64,000 bases of DNA from Ignavibacteria bacterium. Lineage in GTDB: Bacteria; Bacteroidota; Ignavibacteria; Kapaibacteriales; Kapaibacteriaceae. The notes beneath the pieces were generated by a model. That model had not been told where the DNA came from and searched no databases. It saw only the letters and a program-made list of their open reading frames with translations. The stretch is taken from contig JACPPD010000016.1 in NCBI GenBank assembly GCA_016191145.1, forward strand, positions 1 to 64,000. Direction: 5' to 3'. Shown here piece after piece: positions 13,427 to 41,107 of the stretch; within the stretch, counting starts at the first letter, position 1; each line of letters begins with the position of its first letter. Made by a program: the position numbers and the translations under genes.

Positions 13427-13485
13427 GCTGTGTATTTAAAAATTGAAGGGGGCAAAAATAGCGCGTCTTCGTATACTCGTTGTTA

Positions 13486-14109
13486 ATGAAGTGGGCCGAT
13501 CTACTTAAGGACTGGAAAGCAACCGCTGTTGCATTGATAACTGTTGTTGCCTTTCTGGTTTCTCTGTTTAGTTATACAACCTTTCTTACGTGGGTTGAAT
13601 TGCGCCCTGGCGTATCGTTTACCGATCCTGTTCACTCAGTTGTTGGACCTGTAGATCTGACGTGGCCGATTTTTATCGTTCTGTATACTGCTCTCGTAGT
13701 TGCAATCTTCTCGATGCTCAGGTACCCTGAAGTTTTGTTCGGAACTCTCCGTGCTTACACAATCCTTGTTGCTTTCAGAATCATCTGTATGGCAATGCTG
13801 CCCCTCGATCCCCCGCAAACCATGATTCCACTGATAGATCCAGTTGTTCAATTGGCAACAGGCAATGGCAATTTACCTCTTACTCGAGATTTGTTTTTTA
13901 GCGGGCACACATCAATTCTGTTGCTCGTAGCCATCTCGGCTCCAACACGTCTTGGTAAAATATTTTTCTATAGCCTTTCACTCTTCATTGGCATCGCAGT
14001 AATTCTGCAGCATGTGCACTACACTGTAGATGTTGTTGTTGCGCCGATGGCCGCATGGCTTGCATCAAATCTTGCAGGCACACCTCAGTTATCACGATCA
14101 CAGTTTTAG
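13486..14109 (+). CDS. PAP2/sphingomyelin-synthase-like membrane protein
   Basis: About 207 residues, with several transmembrane helices and the motif pair DLFFSGHTS (near residue 140) and HVHYTVDVVVAP (near 175). SGH and H..YT.DV are the catalytic histidine/aspartate motifs of the PAP2_C (sphingomyelin synthase-like) branch of lipid phosphatase/phosphotransferases. The ATG at 13486 starts MKWADLLKDW; a TTG two codons earlier is possible. A serine palmitoyltransferase operon lies 6 kb away, so a role in sphingolipid headgroup transfer or lipid phosphate hydrolysis is reasonable but unproven. Divergent from ettA, convergent with the arginase-family gene. Confidence 0.8.
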   Translation: MKWADLLKDWKATAVALITVVAFLVSLFSYTTFLTWVELRPGVSFTDPVHSVVGPVDLTWPIFIVLYTALVVAIFSMLRYPEVLFGTLRAYTILVAFRIICMAMLPLDPPQTMIPLIDPVVQLATGNGNLPLTRDLFFSGHTSILLLVAISAPTRLGKIFFYSLSLFIGIAVILQHVHYTVDVVVAPMAAWLASNLAGTPQLSRSQF

Positions 14110-14115
14110 TTAAAT

Positions 14116-15093
14116 TCAGTGGTGCAATTTTGTTCGCTCGGCAACACCCGATAACAACTGCATAATCATCACACCTGCAAGCTTCGAGGTTCTTCCGTCA
14201 ATATCGAAATCAGGGTTTACCTCGACAACATCGAAAGCCGCAAGATTTTTCTGCCTACCAACGTGCCGCAAGCACTGTCCAATTTCAGCGGGAGTAAATC
14301 CATCTGCCGAGGGTGCACTTACACCAGGTGAGTAGGCTGAGGCAAACGCGTCCATATCGAGCGATACGTACATCTGAGAACTGATAATGGAATCGACGGC
14401 ATCTCTAAACGATGGGAAGACGCCTCGATCACGGATTTCGTCGAGCATTAATACCTGCCCTCCATTGTCGGCAACGTATTTCAAGTGTGCAGCAGAAACC
14501 GAAACAGACTGCAGCCCAAACTCAATCAGCCCCTTATCAACCAACCCCGAATTCTTAATGGTAAGAAGCTGACGGAATGCCGATCCGGAATGCGCTCTCA
14601 CGTTATCATGAAGGGGGCGAACATCTGCGTGTGCATCGATGTTGACAACACCAAATTGGCGCCTGAGCGTTATTAGCGCGTGCATGGTTGGCCACGCAAT
14701 ATCGTGCCCGCCGCCTAGTACAATTGGTATTCCGCCACTTGAAATAACATCGACAACTATATCATATAATTCATCATGAATTTGTTCAAGTGTCTTTCCT
14801 GTAGTTTCAATATCACCAACATCGAAGAGCTGCATTGCGCCCGACAAAATTGCGTCGAGCATCGACGACGCCGAAAGCTTGTACAACGATCTGCGAATCT
14901 CCATTGGACCTCGTGCAGCACCTGGTCTTCCGTGGTTGCGTTCAACTCCAATGTGCTGAGGTACTCCTAGCACTACACACGCAACACCGCCCATTTTGGG
15001 TACTGACGAGACAACACTGACGATGTCTCCAACTCTCTGATCTTGCGGATCCGACGAGCGGAATATTACCTCTGCTAGATGCTCGGTAGTCAT
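14116..15093 (-). CDS. Arginase/agmatinase-family hydrolase, probably formimidoylglutamase
   Basis: A ureohydrolase with the binuclear manganese motifs GGGHDIAW, NIDAHADVR and SLDMDAF. Ureohydrolases cleave guanidino or formimino groups. With hutU in the same window, formimidoylglutamase (HutG, last step of histidine degradation) is the most likely role, but arginase or agmatinase cannot be excluded from motifs alone. The frame extends to 15141, but MTTEHLAEVIF at 15093 avoids overlap with the upstream gene's stop and gives ~325 residues, near the family norm. It lies 31 bases after the PNGase F-like gene on the same strand. Confidence 0.85.
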   Translation of the reverse strand: MTTEHLAEVIFRSSDPQDQRVGDIVSVVSSVPKMGGVACVVLGVPQHIGVERNHGRPGAARGPMEIRRSLYKLSASSMLDAILSGAMQLFDVGDIETTGKTLEQIHDELYDIVVDVISSGGIPIVLGGGHDIAWPTMHALITLRRQFGVVNIDAHADVRPLHDNVRAHSGSAFRQLLTIKNSGLVDKGLIEFGLQSVSVSAAHLKYVADNGGQVLMLDEIRDRGVFPSFRDAVDSIISSQMYVSLDMDAFASAYSPGVSAPSADGFTPAEIGQCLRHVGRQKNLAAFDVVEVNPDFDIDGRTSKLAGVMIMQLLSGVAERTKLHH

Positions 15094-15124
15094 TCTGTGC
15101 CCGCAAAGTACATGCTGTCCACCT

Positions 15125-18100
15125 TCAACGCAGCCTAGCAAAGAATGTACTCACTATACCATTAGCCGACTGGAGCATCGCAACGTGAGAGCCGATGGTA
15201 AGTGTGGGTGGAACGGCAAATCTCAGCGAAGCGGACTCTAGAATACCATCAAAGACAACTTCCTCGATTCTTCCAAGCATGTCTGTGATGACGATTCGAC
15301 ATTGCGAACCCAGCAATCTGTTCGTTGATTTGCTATTGCCTGTAATCCCGGCTATCTCGACAAGAATTTCACCGCCTGATACAACTGGATTGGGGACTAC
15401 ACCAATCTCTGCGCCAATTCGAGGATTGGTTCCATCTTCTTCGACATCAGTGACAACTGCATTGCCAACAAGTCTTACAAGACGCAATGACGACCGTTCG
15501 TCGTTGCTAAATATTCTTACTGTACCCGACGTAACTCCAAGATCCGGCCGCAAGAATCCTACGGTGACGTAAAGTGTATCTCCCTGCATCAATGTTGCAG
15601 GCAAAGTCTTGGACGTGTTTTCAATCGTAAAATGATTTTTTATAGAAAAAGCGACAATGCTGTCTATCCGCAAGGGAGCGCTTGTAGATGATGTGATGGC
15701 AAATGTCTTTTCAGCCTTGATACTGGGGAGAGTGAGGAAAAAGAGCGTGTCTGCGCTTGTGGCGATGGTTGGCTTTGAACCGACGCTAAACTGCATCCAT
15801 GTACGGTTGCCAAAATCCAGTTCAAAGGTTTTAATAGTCAGCCCATCTGATTTAAATGTAAGGGAACCGCTTCCAAGTTGCGAACGGAGATACCAAAAAT
15901 CGAGACCGTATCCTTCTTTATTAATCAGTTCATAATCGTAACAGCCATCGTCGAGTACAAAATCGTTAGTGTATGTAGTGTTGTCTGCCAGGTTAGATCC
16001 CGACCCAAGTATGGTTCCATCTATGTTCTTAAGACGCCACTCATACTGTGCCGCTGCCTGATTGTTTGTTCGTAGTACGATTTGTAAATTTCTATAGTAA
16101 ACTGGCGGGCTGACAAACGAGGTTCGCTTCTCGTCGTTATCAATGTTCTGATCAGTGCTGCCATTCGGAGCAGATACGGTAGCAATAAATGTCTGCATTC
16201 CCTCACGCGCCGTCCAACTGGGTATGGGAAGAGTGAGTGTATCCATCTCAAGAAAATCAAGATCTCCCGTCCACTGAAACGAGCTTTGCAAGCCCCCTTC
16301 AACACCATAAGTGATTGTACATGAGGTAAGTTTTGTCGACCCTGAGTTACGGATAACAATTGTTGGCTGACCGCATATTGGATTTATTCTCTGGTAAAAT
16401 TCCCATGAGTTAGGACTAATTACATCAAACAGTTCGGCATCGAGCGCAAAGTTGGGTGCGCCATAGCCGATAAGTTGTCCGGATACCTCCCATCGTCCCC
16501 AGCTTTCGTTGGCTGCTAACTGTTTAACTCCGTAGTCAATAGTCACGGAAGATTTGCTCGTGATATAGGGAGTCAGTTCAAATTCATAAAGGTCTACCGG
16601 AGCGCCCGGGCACCATCCCGTGCGATCAATGAGCCACGTACCTCCCTGTGGATACACTGGGTTATCGCCGCATTCTTTCCAGAGCGTCCATTTAAATCGT
16701 TCTATGCCGTCAACGGCAAAAAAGTGTTCGCGCGGACAGAACTCCGCACAGTTGGTTTCATTGCTAAAATCGTGTCCGCTTGTTACAGCTTTCAGCCGGA
16801 ACGTTTGTGCATTTCGATTAAGCGGCACAACAACAGGAGCTAATGCTGTATTTGAAAGAACTGACGGAAACGAGGCATTACGTTCGTACCACACTTGATC
16901 AATTTGCTTAACATCTCTTGGAGGTGTGCCTTTGATGAACACAAAGGTGAGATCGATTAACTCTTGTTGGTTTCCAGCTTCGAGAGTGACGTTGTTTCTC
17001 AACAGTGGAGCGAAGTCTGTAACATCATAAATCCATTTGAAACCATTAGGACCAAGGTCGAGACCGATTCCATACGGAGTGATATATCGTCCAATCTCAA
17101 ATTGTACAATTGGGCTGAAATATATTTTGAGCTGTTTTCTCAAAGTCTGCGAAGGAGTAACCCACTCAGAGTCAATCCTACTTCCGGCCTCGTTAACAAT
17201 TGGGAGCCATCCGGCTGCATACACATTGAGTGTATCAGTTGGGTTGCCCGGATGATTAGCGTCGCTTGGGTAATAGACACGGGGCTGCGCCGGGTTGTCG
17301 AATTTTATCACATGTGTAACTCTGGGCGCTAAAGACTGCACAACATCACCTTGTACAGAATTACGCGACGGTGCACCCTGCTCGAATTTCAGGAGGGGTC
17401 TCGATGTGGAGACATTGGTTAGGTAGCCAAGCATGGTACCAAGAATCCATGCGCGCCTCATGGCTCCAAATTGCTGTGCATGTCTTCCATTTTCCGATTC
17501 ATCATCGGCAACGAGGGGTATTGACTCATTTTCGGCGGAATAATAACTCAGAAGATTTGAATAGAATGGGTGCAGGCTAGTGATGTGCTTCGTCATCCAC
17601 TGCCGAATCGTTGCCTGGTCCAAAGCCTTATTCCAAATCTGTATTTCGTCGAGAAAACCGTCATAGGATCCTGAATTTCCAGAACCAACCAACAGCTTTG
17701 CAATTCCTGTGATTGGAGTATTCTTACCGGAACCCTCTATGAACAATTCACCATTCAGATAAATGCGCATAATACCAGTAGTTGCATTTTTTACAAAAGC
17801 CCAATGGTTCCACCTATTTTCATAATTCTCAGGAATGGCGGCTGCTTGGATTCGATCGACGTTGCCGTTCGATTGATTTCTTCCCGCATCCCAATACACA
17901 GTTCCGTCGCCCCACGGACTATGAATGTTCATCACCCTATTGCCGCTTGCATCATAAGCTTCAAGAGTATTGTGGTTCTTTGGCATCACATCTTGTGTAC
18001 CAAAAGACCAGAAAGCTACCGTAACCTCGTTTGTTATATCAGATCCAATCGAGGGCGGAACGATGAGCATGTCGCCTGTTGTAAACTGAAATGCCCGGCG

Positions 18101-18949
18101 CGACCCGTCGTCGATGAGACCGCTCGAAGGAGCAGTTCCTGCTTCGACTGTTCCGGCGAGCTCAGAGCCAAGGCATGAGATGTCGATGATGATGTTAGAA
18201 GTGCCATCCCACACGAATGCCGAGTGGAATGCAATAAAGTTGTCACCATCGTCGACGACGAGGTTTCTCCTGCATACTGTTGTTAGATTTTCCTGACCTA
18301 ATATCCCAGAAACTGATGTAGAAGTTGTCTGTCCCATCATTACTGTAAATAATTTTACAGCACCAACTGAATCCAGCGCCTTGAGTACCATTCCGCCAAT
18401 CTTGCCTGCAGACATCCCTGCATCTTTCAGCTCGCCTGCAGTCCAGATAAACCGCAATCGGCCACCAGTGCTTTTAAACAGTGAATTGTTACCTAATCCT
18501 CCACTTCCAATTGCATAGAGATCTCCCTGAACCCCGGAGGATAACTGAAACTCCTTGAACCTTTGTTTTTCATTAACTGGATTCACTGTATAGAGGAAAC
18601 TATCCGGAGTTGTTCCCCTCACGATATAATTCACCTGTTGAGTTCGTGTGGAATCGAATTCCCCTGTTGAATCTGTTAATATCGTGTAAGTCAGATAATC
18701 CCACTCACCGCACGGATATTGGTCCTGAGTGGTTCTGGAATCGCACTTTAACGTGTATTCCATCAGCACCTTTTGATATTCGCCGGGCGGCGGGAACAAC
18801 CACGTCCCGCTTCTCTTAGTGATATCGTCGAACGTTAACGTTTTTACACGAATCGTATCACCTACGGCCGCGCTAAGACTTGCACCATGTGCAAGAAATG
18901 CGATACCAATCAACGTAATGAAAGAACATTTGCGTATAGATTTTTTCAT
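15125..18949 (-). CDS. Giant secreted PNGase F-like protein with LamG insert and type IX sorting tail
   Basis: About 1274 residues. I start at the Met at 18949 because GGAGG lies a few bases before it and overlaps an earlier in-frame ATG (18964). A signal peptide ends near residue 30. An N-terminal PNGase F-type domain shows CDSRTTQDQYPCGEWDYLTY. A LamG/concanavalin-like domain (about residues 300-470; AFWSFG, WNHWAFVKN, GFLDEIQIWNKAL) follows. A second PNGase F-type region contains CPREHFFAVDG and DRTGWCPGAPVD. A HYDIN/choice-anchor-like beta domain precedes a last ~90 residues (VVPNPVVSGGEI..., ITDMLGR) resembling a type IX secretion sorting domain. Likely surface-exposed; N-glycan amidase activity is plausible but unproven. 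Confidence 0.85.
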   Translation of the reverse strand: MKKSIRKCSFITLIGIAFLAHGASLSAAVGDTIRVKTLTFDDITKRSGTWLFPPPGEYQKVLMEYTLKCDSRTTQDQYPCGEWDYLTYTILTDSTGEFDSTRTQQVNYIVRGTTPDSFLYTVNPVNEKQRFKEFQLSSGVQGDLYAIGSGGLGNNSLFKSTGGRLRFIWTAGELKDAGMSAGKIGGMVLKALDSVGAVKLFTVMMGQTTSTSVSGILGQENLTTVCRRNLVVDDGDNFIAFHSAFVWDGTSNIIIDISCLGSELAGTVEAGTAPSSGLIDDGSRRAFQFTTGDMLIVPPSIGSDITNEVTVAFWSFGTQDVMPKNHNTLEAYDASGNRVMNIHSPWGDGTVYWDAGRNQSNGNVDRIQAAAIPENYENRWNHWAFVKNATTGIMRIYLNGELFIEGSGKNTPITGIAKLLVGSGNSGSYDGFLDEIQIWNKALDQATIRQWMTKHITSLHPFYSNLLSYYSAENESIPLVADDESENGRHAQQFGAMRRAWILGTMLGYLTNVSTSRPLLKFEQGAPSRNSVQGDVVQSLAPRVTHVIKFDNPAQPRVYYPSDANHPGNPTDTLNVYAAGWLPIVNEAGSRIDSEWVTPSQTLRKQLKIYFSPIVQFEIGRYITPYGIGLDLGPNGFKWIYDVTDFAPLLRNNVTLEAGNQQELIDLTFVFIKGTPPRDVKQIDQVWYERNASFPSVLSNTALAPVVVPLNRNAQTFRLKAVTSGHDFSNETNCAEFCPREHFFAVDGIERFKWTLWKECGDNPVYPQGGTWLIDRTGWCPGAPVDLYEFELTPYITSKSSVTIDYGVKQLAANESWGRWEVSGQLIGYGAPNFALDAELFDVISPNSWEFYQRINPICGQPTIVIRNSGSTKLTSCTITYGVEGGLQSSFQWTGDLDFLEMDTLTLPIPSWTAREGMQTFIATVSAPNGSTDQNIDNDEKRTSFVSPPVYYRNLQIVLRTNNQAAAQYEWRLKNIDGTILGSGSNLADNTTYTNDFVLDDGCYDYELINKEGYGLDFWYLRSQLGSGSLTFKSDGLTIKTFELDFGNRTWMQFSVGSKPTIATSADTLFFLTLPSIKAEKTFAITSSTSAPLRIDSIVAFSIKNHFTIENTSKTLPATLMQGDTLYVTVGFLRPDLGVTSGTVRIFSNDERSSLRLVRLVGNAVVTDVEEDGTNPRIGAEIGVVPNPVVSGGEILVEIAGITGNSKSTNRLLGSQCRIVITDMLGRIEEVVFDGILESASLRFAVPPTLTIGSHVAMLQSANGIVSTFFARLR

Positions 18950-19018
18950 AGGAACCTCCAGCACGATAAACTACGAAACGTTGACCCCAGATGTACACTT
19001 TCCCCTATGCCATCAAGG

Positions 19019-19783
19019 TTAGTGCCTGGCCACGCCCCCATCGACATTGATGGTCTGTCCGGTAATGATGCCGGACGCAGGCAGGGCAAGGAAGGCAACG
19101 ACGTTTGCGATATCTTCTGGTTCATCAGCCCGATGAACTGCTTGGGCTGGTATGATATGTTTCAGCATAGTAGTGCTCACCGATCCCTCGGCAGCGCTCT
19201 GCGTGGCAGTTAAGCCGACACTAACTGTATTTATTGTTATTCCATACTTGCCGATTTCTGATGCCAGCGATCGGGTAAGTCCGATTACGGCCATCTTAGC
19301 GGAGACATAATGGCACAGGTAGGGCGTACCAAGCCACACAGTATCACTCGAAAAAGTAATGATCCTTCCAAAGCCGGCTTTTTTCATATATGGAAGAACT
19401 GCACGGATGGTGAGAAAGAGAGTATCGAGTGTTATCTCGAACGTGCGTTTCCACTCAGCGAACGACAGCAACTCAAATGGCTCTTCGTGATACACACCAA
19501 CATTGTGTACAAGGATATCGATGCGACCATATTTTTCCATGGCCGTTGCAGCAACCACATCTGCGTCCTCAGGTTTCGTTAGATCTGCAACTACACTCGT
19601 CACCTCGCCCCCGGCATCGCGTACATGTTGCACTGTTGCAGCCGAATCCCGAACATCTGCTATAATTAGTTTTGCGCCTTCCTCTGCGAGCCGTTCACAG
19701 AATGCATGTCCATTGCCAACTGCAGCGCCGGTAACAATGGCAACCCTGTCTTTCAATCCGCGTTCGAACTTTGCTATCTGCAT
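19019..19783 (-). CDS. Short-chain dehydrogenase/reductase, candidate 3-ketosphinganine reductase
   Basis: A classical SDR of 254 residues. The cofactor loop is TGAAVGNG at 18-25 and NVGV (in place of NNAG) is at 94-97. The catalytic residues are Ser145/146, Tyr159 and Lys163 (HYVSAKMA), and the C-terminus ends ITGQTINVDGGV. Its ATG lies two bases after the serine palmitoyltransferase TGA, so the two are translationally coupled. The product of that enzyme is a 3-keto base that must be reduced, which makes this SDR a good candidate reductase. Sequence alone does not separate this from other SDRs of the FabG type. Confidence 0.88.
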   Translation of the reverse strand: MQIAKFERGLKDRVAIVTGAAVGNGHAFCERLAEEGAKLIIADVRDSAATVQHVRDAGGEVTSVVADLTKPEDADVVAATAMEKYGRIDILVHNVGVYHEEPFELLSFAEWKRTFEITLDTLFLTIRAVLPYMKKAGFGRIITFSSDTVWLGTPYLCHYVSAKMAVIGLTRSLASEIGKYGITINTVSVGLTATQSAAEGSVSTTMLKHIIPAQAVHRADEPEDIANVVAFLALPASGIITGQTINVDGGVARH

Positions 19784-19784
19784 A

Positions 19785-20978
19785 TCAATTGATTATCCCA
19801 AGTTCCAAGCCAACTGCATGGAACACATTCAGAATCTGATCAAGGTGCTCGTCTCGATGCGTTGCCATATAACTCGTTCGCAGCATGGCGAGATTAGGGG
19901 GAACACCGGGTGGAATGAAAGCATTAACGAAAACACCTTTGTCGTATAGCTTGCGCCAGAAGATCATGGTCTTATCTGTATCGCCTAGAACTACTGGCAC
20001 AATGCCCGATCTGCTCTCGATTACATTGAATCCCATCTGCTTAAAACCCTTGCGCATCTTTTCGGCGTTTGCCAGCAGTTGATCTATGCGCCATGGTTCT
20101 TCCAGAAGAATGTCGAGAGCCTTAAGCGCCGAAGCAACCGATGCCGGAGTTGGAGAAGCGCTAAAGATGAGGGCCGGAGAATGATGTTTAAGATAGTTTA
20201 ACACTCGTTCCGGACCAGCAACAAATCCTCCAAGAGAAGCAAATGTCTTTGAAAATGTACCCATGGTTAAATCGGTTTTCGCAGTTACTCCGTAGTGACT
20301 CGCAGTACCCCTGCCCCCTACACCAACAACACCAGTTGCATGAGCATCGTCGACCATCACGCGTGCGCCGTATTTCTCTGCAACCTCGAGCATCTGCGGC
20401 AGCTCAACAAGTTCACCAGAAACAGAAAAAACTCCATCGGTAACAACGAGCTTGCCTGCATCATCGGGCAGGCGCTTAAGCACTCGCTCCAAATCCTCCA
20501 TATCGTTGTGTTTATAGCGAACAAATTCTGCGAATCCACCTTTTGCTAATAAACACCCACCAATGATACAGGCATGATTTTCTTTGTCAGAAATAACGTA
20601 GTCACCTTTTTGTACCAAGGCAGAGATAACACCGAGCGCCGTTTGATAGCCTGTTGAAAATAAGAGGACATCTTCGTAGCCAAGAAAGTCCGCTAATCTT
20701 TCTTCAAGTTCGATGTGCAGTTTTATCGTGCCGGTTAAATATCTGCTGCCAGAGCACCCGGTACCGTAACGATCTATAGCATCCTTCGCGGCAGTCTTTA
20801 CACGGCTGTCGGCGGTAAGTCCAAGATAATTATTCGAACCTGCCATGATTACCTGGCGTCCTTCCAACATAACCACAGGCCCTTCGTTTTCCTCGACCGG
20901 ACGGAAGTACGGGTATAAGCCTAGTTCCTTTATCTCATCTGCTCTTGTAAAATCGAAACACTTCTGAAATAGCTCCAC
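19785..20978 (-). CDS. spt: Serine palmitoyltransferase-like alpha-oxoamine synthase
   Basis: A PLP-dependent alpha-oxoamine synthase of 397 residues. [23 protein letters not shown] and the PLP lysine Lys244 in [11 protein letters not shown] are diagnostic, with Asp210/His213 in DDAHATG. The N-terminus ([16 protein letters not shown]) resembles bacterial serine palmitoyltransferase rather than KBL or BioF, so the likely reaction is serine plus palmitoyl-CoA to 3-ketosphinganine. The start is GTG at 20978, five bases after AGGAG. The ATG overlapping it at 20980 is out of frame. It heads a two-gene operon with the SDR and is divergent from the SulP transporter. Confidence 0.88.
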
Positions 20979-38900: not shown

Positions 38901-40232
38901 TTAGTCCCACTTTAACACCTTGCCTAATCGTTGGAAAAATGTTGGCTCGGTTTGAATATTTCGTGCATCAACTTTAGACGCAGAATCCCCAAAGCCGTCG
39001 GCGATTCTAAAATGCCTGCTCGTCCATGTTTTGTTCATATCGACAAGCGCCTGAATCATTCGCTGATTCCGGTTTGCCACTCTATGGCTGTATTGTTTCT
39101 CTTCGCCGTTTGAAGACACAAATAATCTGCGAATGGCATCAATAGCTTCAAGCGCATGTTCCAGAATAAAAAACCATATCATCCACCCAAGATGTGCATT
39201 CCCAATTGGAAGTTTGAGGATGTCCTCAAATACGGGTTTGTAGTCGACGGGATCATTATATCGCTTAATCATTGCATAGATATGCGTTACACCGGGTGAA
39301 AACGGAAGGAACGTTCTTGAAAAATCAATCAGTGGCGTCGTCAATGCTAATGCGTTTTGATTGGGAATAAACTGACTTTTATAAATGCGCGACTGGAGTT
39401 TCTTTCCTTCGGCGTACGACGTCGGATTGAGATCCGGATTAACCCCTAGTGCTCTGCCATACAAATGCCACGTCATGTAATAATCATCGATGTCTTGTTG
39501 TGGAACCTTAACCCCATTTGCCAACAATCCATCTATAACTTCTATGCTAAATGTATGCACGGCAAAAATCATGTCCTGCTGGTTGATTGGCAAACCCCAC
39601 GCATCGTCCCACATCATTGTGATTGCCGAATCTTGATAATCCGGATTGCTCTTTTTCTTATTTATTCTGTGCCTGATCATGGCATGAACCAGGCGAAGTT
39701 TCTGGATCGATCGGATAGCATTTCCCTCTGGCTGAAATCCATTATCCTCCATAACATCTGCCACAAATTGCAGCGTTTCAACAATGCGCCTGTGCGGGTA
39801 GTCTACAAGCAGTTTCGTTGCAACCAGAACGTTCGTTGCTTTAAACGCCGAGTATTGCTTAAGAAGTGATCTCAGCGTAAGAGCAAACAAACAATCGCCA
39901 ACATGCAAATCGAAAAATTCACACCCACGATGAATAATCTCATATTCTTCCTGCGATTGAGGGAAGAGATGTTGATCATTAAAGTAATCCGTCAATACCT
40001 GTACCAGCCGCTCATGTTCTTCGTTGAACTCTGCTTCGGGAGTGCCGTTTCTGAACACGTCGGCGCTAATCTGATGTGTGTTGTTGACGATATGAGCCAT
40101 AGAAGGATAGATATCCTTGGCATAGCGCGACTCAAGCAAGGTGGCAGCCACCGAATCGGCATAGTCATCCTGGACGTATCTCCAGGATTCCAACTCCTCA
40201 TCAGTCATTGTTGCATTGAACATATTCATCAT
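38901..40232 (-). CDS. DUF2236 / MpaB-type oxygenase domain protein
   Basis: About 443 residues, alpha-helical, matching the DUF2236 (MpaB/rubber oxygenase-like) pattern: YPHRRIVETLQFV, then IRSIQKLRLVHAMIRHRI (the conserved R..H..IR.H stretch), AITMMWDDAWGLPINQQDM and YYMTWHLYGRALGV. Members are thought to be heme- or metal-binding oxygenases; MpaB and the latex-clearing protein are studied relatives. The frame opens at 40331, but the first ~33 residues overlap the methyltransferase gene; ATG ATG at 40232 is preferred. No cofactor ligand can be assigned. It lies between a SAM methyltransferase and the kinase-cyclase gene. Confidence 0.75.
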   Translation of the reverse strand: MMNMFNATMTDEELESWRYVQDDYADSVAATLLESRYAKDIYPSMAHIVNNTHQISADVFRNGTPEAEFNEEHERLVQVLTDYFNDQHLFPQSQEEYEIIHRGCEFFDLHVGDCLFALTLRSLLKQYSAFKATNVLVATKLLVDYPHRRIVETLQFVADVMEDNGFQPEGNAIRSIQKLRLVHAMIRHRINKKKSNPDYQDSAITMMWDDAWGLPINQQDMIFAVHTFSIEVIDGLLANGVKVPQQDIDDYYMTWHLYGRALGVNPDLNPTSYAEGKKLQSRIYKSQFIPNQNALALTTPLIDFSRTFLPFSPGVTHIYAMIKRYNDPVDYKPVFEDILKLPIGNAHLGWMIWFFILEHALEAIDAIRRLFVSSNGEEKQYSHRVANRNQRMIQALVDMNKTWTSRHFRIADGFGDSASKVDARNIQTEPTFFQRLGKVLKWD

Positions 40233-40255
40233 CGCTTTATGGAAATAGAAGTCAA

Positions 40256-41107
40256 TTATTTCGTTCCACTGAACAACATGTACCGCCAAAGATCCTTGCG
40301 GTAGGCTTTGTATTGATAACCAGTCGACCATGCATTAAGAAGGTTTTGTCGGCTCCGCAATCCAAGCGCATACTTGCCATACATGTAAACAATGCCGGGA
40401 TAGAACAGGTAATACAGCCGACGTATACTCTTTACTACCTTGGGTGTGATATCTGATCTCTTCGGTTCACGGAACCCGGCAATCTGAATTATTTCCCAAA
40501 AATTATCGACGTCAGCATACGCGTTGATAGCCCATGTGCGTGTCCACTTGTCCATCAAAACGGCATCAGTAGAGTTGGGTTCAACATTGTTACTGAAAAA
40601 ATCAGCAACTATCACCTTACCGCCCGGTTTGAGAATTCTATAAGCTTCGTTAAGAAAATCAATTTTATCATGAGCGTAGCACACGCTTTCAATTGCCCAT
40701 ACAACGTCGAATGAATTATCGGGGAACGAAGTTTCCAGATAGTTCTGACATTCAAAAAATGTTTTATGTGATACCCCATGTGCTGAAGCGTTAGCATTGC
40801 ACTGATCTACCTGTTTGGCGCTGAGCGTAATACCCTTAACATTACAATCAAATTGCTGAGCGAGAAAAATTGAAGAGCCCCCTACGCCACATCCAGCATC
40901 GAGAATATAATCACCACGCTTAACCCCTCCGAACTCGGCAACTCGTTCATTCATGTTGGCAAGAGCTGTGCGCAGGTTGGGTGTCGCATCGTCCCAATAG
41001 CCATAATGCATGCACATGCGTGCATTCAGGTGCCAGAATTGCTCATAATCCACCTGACAGTGATCATAATAATCAATGATCTCCTGTACATTCAGGCTTG
41101 ACGCCAT
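40256..41107 (-). CDS. SAM-dependent methyltransferase (tocopherol/sterol C-methyltransferase type)
   Basis: 283 residues with a complete class I SAM fold: motif I LDAGCGVGGSS near residue 87, post-motif acidic residue, motif II SFDVVWAIESVCYA and motif III LKPGGKVIVADFF. The N-terminal YYDHCQVDYEQFWHL and HYGYWD resemble the small-molecule C-methyltransferases of the tocopherol, sterol and cyclopropane group. The substrate is probably a lipid or quinone-like molecule, which is an inference from resemblance. Its 3' end is close to, or overlaps, the DUF2236 start, so the two are likely one operon. Confidence 0.85.
   Translation of the reverse strand: MASSLNVQEIIDYYDHCQVDYEQFWHLNARMCMHYGYWDDATPNLRTALANMNERVAEFGGVKRGDYILDAGCGVGGSSIFLAQQFDCNVKGITLSAKQVDQCNANASAHGVSHKTFFECQNYLETSFPDNSFDVVWAIESVCYAHDKIDFLNEAYRILKPGGKVIVADFFSNNVEPNSTDAVLMDKWTRTWAINAYADVDNFWEIIQIAGFREPKRSDITPKVVKSIRRLYYLFYPGIVYMYGKYALGLRSRQNLLNAWSTGYQYKAYRKDLWRYMLFSGTK

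Follow-up and report, generated by a model that had tools for sequence, protein, structure and literature searches.

The window analysed, a stretch of 64,000 nt from an uncultured bacterium of the family Kapaibacteriaceae (class Ignavibacteria), contains a minus-strand directon with an spt-like gene and, facing it, a plus-strand gene for a PAP2_C membrane protein that is not a member of the directon. The features considered are the following:

20988-20984, minus strand: AGGAG ribosome-binding site of spt, from reading of the sequence, with a 5 nt spacer to the GTG
20978-19785, minus strand: spt-like gene (alpha-oxoamine synthase, putatively SPT), GTG start at 20978, 397 codons
19783-19019, minus strand: classical SDR, ATG at 19783 (PF13561, 186 bits), either an auxiliary ketone reductase or an unrelated alcohol dehydrogenase
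18964-15125, minus strand: large protein with N-glycanase_C (PF09113, 62 bits) and Laminin_G_3 (PF13385, 52 bits), 54 nt past the SDR
15141-14116, minus strand: HutG-like arginase-family gene (PF00491, 194 bits), last of the spt directon, true start possibly further in
13486-14109, plus strand: PAP2_C/sphingomyelin-synthase-like membrane protein of 207 aa, a candidate headgroup transferase, ATG at 13486 with an alternative TTG at 13480 (PF14360, 34 bits, cut-off 27)

The observations of an earlier note on this DNA were confirmed, and its interpretation, a possible sphingolipid route involving the spt, SDR and PAP2_C products, was supported in part. The GTG start, the AGGAG site and the PAP2_C protein are as it had described them, and the reported spt-SDR coupling corresponds to a junction of TGA-T-ATG, with 1 nt between stop and start, which is close enough for coupling and involves no overlap. 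The full catalytic triad attributed to the SDR is present (Ser146/147, Tyr159 and Lys163, identical in 22/22 aligned rows with the SDR itself counted), as are the Tyr-X-X-X-Lys and Gly-X-X-X-Gly-X-Gly motifs common to most SDRs. The N-glycanase-like gene and the HutG-like gene, the latter scoring 201 bits against TIGR01227 and thus below the cut-off of 229, probably have no tie to sphingolipids.

The Spt-like enzyme and the putative ceramide gene set

The Spt-like protein has a PF00155 domain (189 bits, residues 43-383) covering most of its length. Its best NCBIfam match was NF047600, the Bacteroidota-type SPT equivalog, at 493 bits, and because this misses the strict threshold of 640 bits the designation 'Spt-like' is the safe one; five of the seven Spt-like relatives scanned also fell below the threshold, those above it being from Niastella (L062) and Parabacteroides (L091). 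The best PDB match was the Sphingobacterium-type SPT 3a2b (397 bits), to which the protein is identical at His135, Asp211, His213, Lys244 and Arg367, which we take to be the active-site residues of SPT and which are common to much of the superfamily. In a tree of 89 alpha-oxoamine synthases, rooted for display only and with long branches for some of the references, the protein fell inside a set of 82 rows with support of 98/86 that includes the Sphingobacterium-type, Sphingobium, Bacteroides, Parabacteroides and Niastella SPTs. Outside this set were E. coli BioF and Kbl, another BioF, another Kbl, the genome's own paralogue, a Thioclava protein and L078. The enzyme thus resembles the Bacteroidota SPTs (3a2b, Parabacteroides, Niastella, NF047600) over its full length and in its active-site residues, but differs from them in lying under the NF047600 cut-off and in belonging to a distinct clade, with support and comprising 40 rows, drawn mostly from the same class with a few other Bacteroidota.

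The alternative raised in the earlier note, that the enzyme is an AONS or KBL in an organism without sphingolipids, is very improbable: the superfamily is shared and TIGR00858 (379 bits) and PRK06939 (370 bits) both match, each below its cut-off, but the reading was rejected on the position of the protein among SPTs and on a distinct KBL paralogue in the genome (673 bits, cut-off 493), and in relatives bCerS and CerR adjoin spt or, in 17 cases, spt is fused to bCerS. The tree, the residues and the gene order of relatives support a predicted SPT, neither AONS nor KBL, as had been proposed. Alanine can also serve as the amino acid for Spt, and further ones are suspected (PMC11334938).

The ceramide synthase that the earlier note had suggested seeking elsewhere in the genome has a candidate in a bCerS homologue on contig C19 (32409-33503, 509 bits), the single match in the genome. 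This homologue is 34% identical to E. coli YghO, which PMC9386255 lists together with Caulobacter CC_1154 as the acyltransferase, and it retains 46 of 49 invariant columns. There was no NCBIfam match to bCerS at E limits of 1e-80 and 1e-20, and the best E of the bCerS profile against PDB sequences was only 0.016. A CerR homologue was found on contig C15 (355607-356587, 398 bits; runner-up in the genome 93 bits), which keeps 28 of 29 invariant columns and is only 29-31% identical to the CerR of Rahnella, E. coli, Rubrobacter and Niastella, within a large fold family.

With these homologues the three-gene ceramide set looks complete in the genome, two of its genes lying far from spt, and at the level of sequence the proposed sphingolipid route is well supported. 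The three genes are on three separate contigs and are not clustered, and for this reason their joint action rests on homology and on relatives. Clustering of ceramide genes is common and is not a defining feature. Such clustering has also been described as not required (PMC11334938). Across 81 spt-bearing loci (the best 80 named and the present one, with an antisense open frame taken as reference gene in six), a bCerS-like gene lay within 6.5 kb in 28 and a CerR-like gene in 26. Of the 119 genomes sampled from the class, 114 had the spt gene and 110 had homologues of all three genes, by a tally of three gene lists; ceramide-backbone synthesis is thus an apparent core trait of the whole class and not a one-contig oddity.

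It is likely that the spt of the window, together with bCerS and CerR, makes dihydroceramide, with the coupled SDR outside this set and the PAP2_C protein a possible headgroup enzyme. As predicted from homology, gene content and conservation, Spt would condense an amino acid (serine expected) with an acyl thioester to give a 3-ketosphinganine-type base, and the bCerS-type N-acyltransferase and the CerR-type extended SDR, which would reduce the ketone, would finish the backbone as dihydroceramide. The coupled SDR, adjoining spt solely in its own family, may serve as an additional ketone reductase, of NADH type, or have some other substrate, and in those members that have it the PAP2_C protein may attach a phosphate-bearing headgroup, phosphoethanolamine being the natural guess, to ceramide.

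The ceramide set of Caulobacter crescentus and E. coli BL21 consists of spt, acpR, aasR, cerR/epi and bcerS/aca. The present genome is similar in having an Spt-like enzyme, a YghO-family N-acyltransferase and a CerR-like epimerase-fold reductase, but differs in that spt has neither an acyl carrier protein gene nor an acyl-ACP synthetase gene beside it, the genes are on three contigs and a different SDR is coupled to spt. There is also a likeness to Spt-like clade B of a Black Sea study (PMC11334938), a wider clade around known SPTs marked by nearby bCerS and CerR. The main text of that study does not contain the words Kapabacteria or Ignavibacteri, and a literature search found no paper joining sphingolipid with either term.

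Role of the coupled SDR

As ketone reductase the CerR homologue has better support than the coupled SDR, because such a homologue exists in the genome and all three ceramide genes are so widely held in the class. The chances are even that the SDR has nothing to do with sphingolipids and is an alcohol dehydrogenase for small molecules that came to lie after spt. Its best PDB match was (S)-1-phenylethanol dehydrogenase (2ew8), its top NCBIfam match was pyridoxal 4-dehydrogenase, under the cut-off, and the directon runs on into the N-glycanase-like and HutG-like genes. Orthologues in 21 genomes of other families adjoined spt in none (0/21); their recurring neighbours were an OmpA/PD40 protein, an ABC transporter pair and a RimP-like gene, with no lipid-synthesis gene, and no hint of function was found in these neighbourhoods. 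Against this reading, the spt-SDR pair was kept, beyond what chance would give, in 8/8 own-family genomes, spanning three genera, in the sample of 119, with a short gap in most members (8, 11, 15, 15, 15 and 64 nt in six named relatives, all longer than here), and in two of these six (L006 and L009) it persists where the N-glycanase-like gene is not adjoining. However, the N-glycanase-like and HutG genes were likewise kept downstream of the pair in 6/6 family genomes looked at (the present one and L133-L137) of the eight, so that spt-SDR adjacency alone is weak evidence of shared function.

The earlier suggestion that the SDR is the 3-ketosphinganine reductase, in which case the route would run at least partly in the eukaryotic order of reduction followed by acylation, is unlikely. 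The Ser-Tyr-Lys residues, the 1 nt gap and the conserved pairing stand in its favour, but its claim to be the sole such reductase is weakened because a CerR homologue occurs in 28 of 29 SDR-bearing genomes and in other families the SDR is not next to spt. Replacement of CerR by the SDR is ruled out by the same persistence of CerR. A further point in favour is that CerR was within 10 kb of spt in 0/29 SDR-bearing genomes, compared with 61/85 SPT genomes lacking the SDR; however, the former count rests on about two lineages, CerR was also unlinked in 24/85 of the latter, and 'unlinked' is an upper bound since some census genomes are fragmentary. The predicted cofactor may also count against this role, in that Asp43 is identical in 22/22 rows, an aspartate at this position predicting NAD(H), whereas in the CerR family the matching site is an invariant Arg. 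Among the 60 of 713 PDB matches listed for the SDR none was named as a 3-ketosphinganine reductase (BT_0972, TSC10, KDSR), nor was any molecule so named among the 60 of 478 listed for a clostridial SPT-adjacent SDR. BT_0972, compared by description, shares both SDR motifs, but PMC9278070 describes this sole tested bacterial enzyme as NADPH-dependent and not clustered with SPT.

The PAP2_C membrane protein

Headgroup transfer to ceramide by the PAP2_C protein is possible, because its AlphaFold2 model (pLDDT 91) is nearest to human SMSr, which was the best match by fold search (Z 15.5, 187 residues, rmsd 3.5) and also first in Foldseek; in the family profile search SMSr (8ijq) was again the top row, with an E of 3.3e-5. 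The core fold, D-X3-S-G-H-T and H-Y-T-X-D-V are shared with human SMSr, yeast Aur1 and an IPC synthase (9vj4), the last motif reading HYTVDV, with His141, His178 and Asp182 invariant in 23 rows. Compared with those proteins the present one is shorter, has Val before the D4 histidine and lacks the D4 tail X3-Y-X6-F-X2-Y-H, having VVAPMAAWLASNLAG after DV. The SMS D3 motif is C-G-D-X3-S-G-H-T (PMC11663969), and the sequence here, T-R-D-LFF-S-G-H-T, lacks the C-G and so departs from the full motif.

That the protein is instead an ordinary lipid phosphatase, of the LpxE or undecaprenyl-diphosphate type, comes only slightly short of an even prospect. LpxE was fourth by fold (Z 11.8, level with second and third) and third by profile (E 0.096), and the missing C-G and a distribution independent of spt point the same way, but human SMSr stood above all other rows by both measures. 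The gene is patchy, being present in 30/119 genomes and not found in 89/119, and all 30 carry spt, approximately as expected from the base rate. The 6 kb separation from spt, part of the earlier case for a shared route, was rejected as functional evidence, as the two genes are 250 kb apart in a same-genus genome, PAP2_C was not found in 3/8 own-family members and co-occurrence is near the base rate; this nearness is local synteny.

SPT-bCerS fusion and reaction order

Two families of the class encode SPT and bCerS as one protein, in 17/17 SPT-bearing genomes sampled. No such fusion was apparent by title among the literature matches listed, and the words fusion and fused are absent from the main text of PMC11334938. 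PMC11087976 treats as unsettled in which order steps two and three of bacterial ceramide synthesis occur, and the fusion bears on whether acylation comes before reduction. A speculative and unlikely extension is that the class constitutes a natural experiment on reaction order, the fusion in two families fitting a 3-keto base that is acylated first and reduced afterwards, and the present family, with a cytoplasmic NADH-type ketone reductase in the spt operon and an intact CerR, perhaps running a reduction-first branch in parallel. The natural fusion offers a single protein allowing a direct test of step order.

The spt-like locus and the probable ceramide gene set

The spt-like gene lies in the following gene run, for which the start codon, Shine-Dalgarno sequence and catalytic residues described in an earlier note proved correct when the sequence was read.

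20978-19785, minus strand: spt-like gene
19783-19019, minus strand: coupled SDR gene
18964-15125, minus strand: 1279-aa protein with N-glycanase_C and Laminin_G_3 domains
15141-14116, minus strand: HutG-like gene
13486-14109: PAP2_C gene, facing the minus-strand run of the other four

The top NCBIfam model for the encoded PLP enzyme was that for serine palmitoyltransferase (SPT), NF047600, at 493 bits (next models 389 and 379, a lead of more than 100 bits), which is below the curated cut-off of 640 passed by two of seven scanned Spt-like relatives (L062, 697; Parabacteroides L091, 684) and missed by five (L027, L058, L008, L015 and L036). In a tree of 89 alpha-oxoamine synthases the enzyme grouped with six named SDR-bearing relatives (7 rows, support 100/97) and fell in a 40-row clade drawn from this class plus a few other Bacteroidota (100/100), enclosed by an 82-row set with known SPTs (98/86); E. 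coli BioF, Thioclava and Sphingobium sit on long branches, which leaves the deep branching order unsure. The active-site residues His135, Asp211, His213, Lys244 and Arg367 are identical to those of the Sphingobacterium-type SPT 3a2b, and the other close paralogue in the genome is a KBL. A separate Spt-like/SDR pairing was seen at nine clostridial or similarly placed loci (L045, L058, L063, L065, L066, L069, L074, L079 and L081), with a different nearby SDR at 24-30% identity to that of the window.

Across 81 loci (the best 80 named matches and the window's own), 6.5 kb around the spt-like gene was surveyed, revealing a GNAT-fold, bCerS-like gene in 28 (26 of them with it immediately downstream in the same orientation) and an epimerase-fold, CerR-like gene in 26 (directly upstream and divergent in 19). 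Both profiles also recovered the corresponding genes of E. coli and Rahnella, each part of a five-gene set that encodes SPT, an acyl carrier protein, an epimerase, a fatty acyl-AMP ligase and an N-acyltransferase. These proteobacterial sets are plasmid-borne (L164, E. coli; L159, Rahnella), that of L164 adjoining genes annotated lptF and lptG, and on plasmid 1 of the actinobacterial Rubrobacter radiotolerans (L158) an Spt-like, a bCerS-like and a CerR-like gene follow one another. PMC9386255 lists YghO and its epimerase neighbour alongside Caulobacter CC_1154 and CC_1164, both described there as required for dihydroceramide.

The window's genome (2.47 Mb, completeness 99.96%) contains single strong matches to bCerS (contig C19:32409-33503) and CerR (contig C15:355607-356587), so that an ordinary bacterial ceramide route looks complete by gene content; literature searches found no published account of this route in the lineage. 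Among 119 genomes of the class, spt was present in 114, bCerS in 116, CerR in 113 and all three in 110, counts that include a few incomplete matches at the ends of contigs. Of the 114 genomes with spt, 65 have bCerS immediately downstream of it in the same orientation, 17 have the two fused and 32 have them unlinked; for CerR, 50 have it divergent and within 500 bp of spt, 11 have it within 10 kb and 53 have it unlinked.

SPT-bCerS fusion in relatives

Within two families of this class, f7 and f13, all 17 spt-bearing genomes of the 18 sampled encode SPT and bCerS in one open frame of 794-947 aa (L101-L117), the remaining genome (G094, 67% complete) having neither domain. The SPT domain (704-742 bits) is followed by a 21-41 aa linker and the bCerS domain (452-519 bits), and the five residues named for the window enzyme are kept in 17/17. 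Two representatives are sisters in the 89-protein tree (100/99), and a single origin of the fusion is therefore likely. A search of 395 sampled genomes of the phylum gave 46 matches at E <= 1e-200, of which G003, G010 and G020, all f7 or f13, are fused. Twenty others, outside the class, each have an in-frame stop between the domains (codon 401-424) and are therefore neighbouring, unfused genes; the remaining 23 show one or more stops, and those also in the 119-genome census are unfused there.

CerR is never part of the fusion, being unlinked in 16 of the 17 fusion genomes and not found by the census profile search in the other, G107. PMC11087976 calls it unsettled whether acylation or reduction comes first and argues from enzyme location for acylation. 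The fusion is a useful one; joining SPT to the acyltransferase and omitting the reductase, it agrees with acylation first, short of proof.

The coupled SDR

SDR orthologues (E <= 1e-60) occurred in 29 of the 119 class genomes and adjoined spt only in the window's own family (8/8), lying on a separate contig or far off along the same contig in the other 21. Outside that family, recurring neighbours were an OmpA/PD40 protein (one f2 and two f13 genomes) and, in f13, an ABC transporter pair and a RimP-like gene. A role unrelated to the pathway is about as likely as not. The earlier note proposed a 3-ketosphinganine reductase; the catalytic residues fit a reductase, and the specific assignment is doubtful given that CerR is retained in 28 of the 29 SDR-bearing genomes, the sole exception being 67% complete. 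CerR was within 10 kb of spt in 0/29 SDR-bearing genomes versus 61/85 SPT genomes without the SDR; the 0/29 represents about two lineages, and CerR is also unlinked in 24 of those 85. Asp or Arg distinguishes NAD(H) from NADP(H) preference, and Asp43 of the SDR points to predicted NAD(H) use, the invariant Arg36 of the CerR family to NADP(H). A ketone-reductase role of the SDR in the pathway appears unlikely, and another lipid-linked role takes the remaining probability. At L009 (6637-6700) the spt-SDR gap contains a 21-nt tandem repeat in roughly two and a half copies.

The PAP2_C protein

Headgroup transfer, as suggested for the PAP2_C protein, is a possible function, as a profile of 23 relatives had human SMSr as its best PDB sequence hit (E 3.3e-5) and the structure model (pLDDT 91) gave SMSr at Z 15.5, ahead of Aur1 (12.3), an IPC synthase (12.2) and LpxE (11.8). 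SMSr alone stands out by fold, because the other three are tied and Z up to about 13 may reflect an arrangement common in mostly helical proteins. His141, His178 and Asp182 are invariant in the alignment; His178 is preceded by Val, whereas SMS2 has at this position a Glu that PMC11663969 describes as important for phosphoethanolamine transfer. The gene occurs in 30 of the 119 class genomes and in five of eight in the window's own family, lying within 7 kb of spt in four of these five. Three CDP-alcohol phosphotransferase genes in the window's genome make phospholipid donors plausible. Elsewhere in the window, at 38901-41107, the gene for an MPAB/Lcp oxygenase-domain protein overlaps one for a methyltransferase, which has a further match to the cyclopropane-synthase family.
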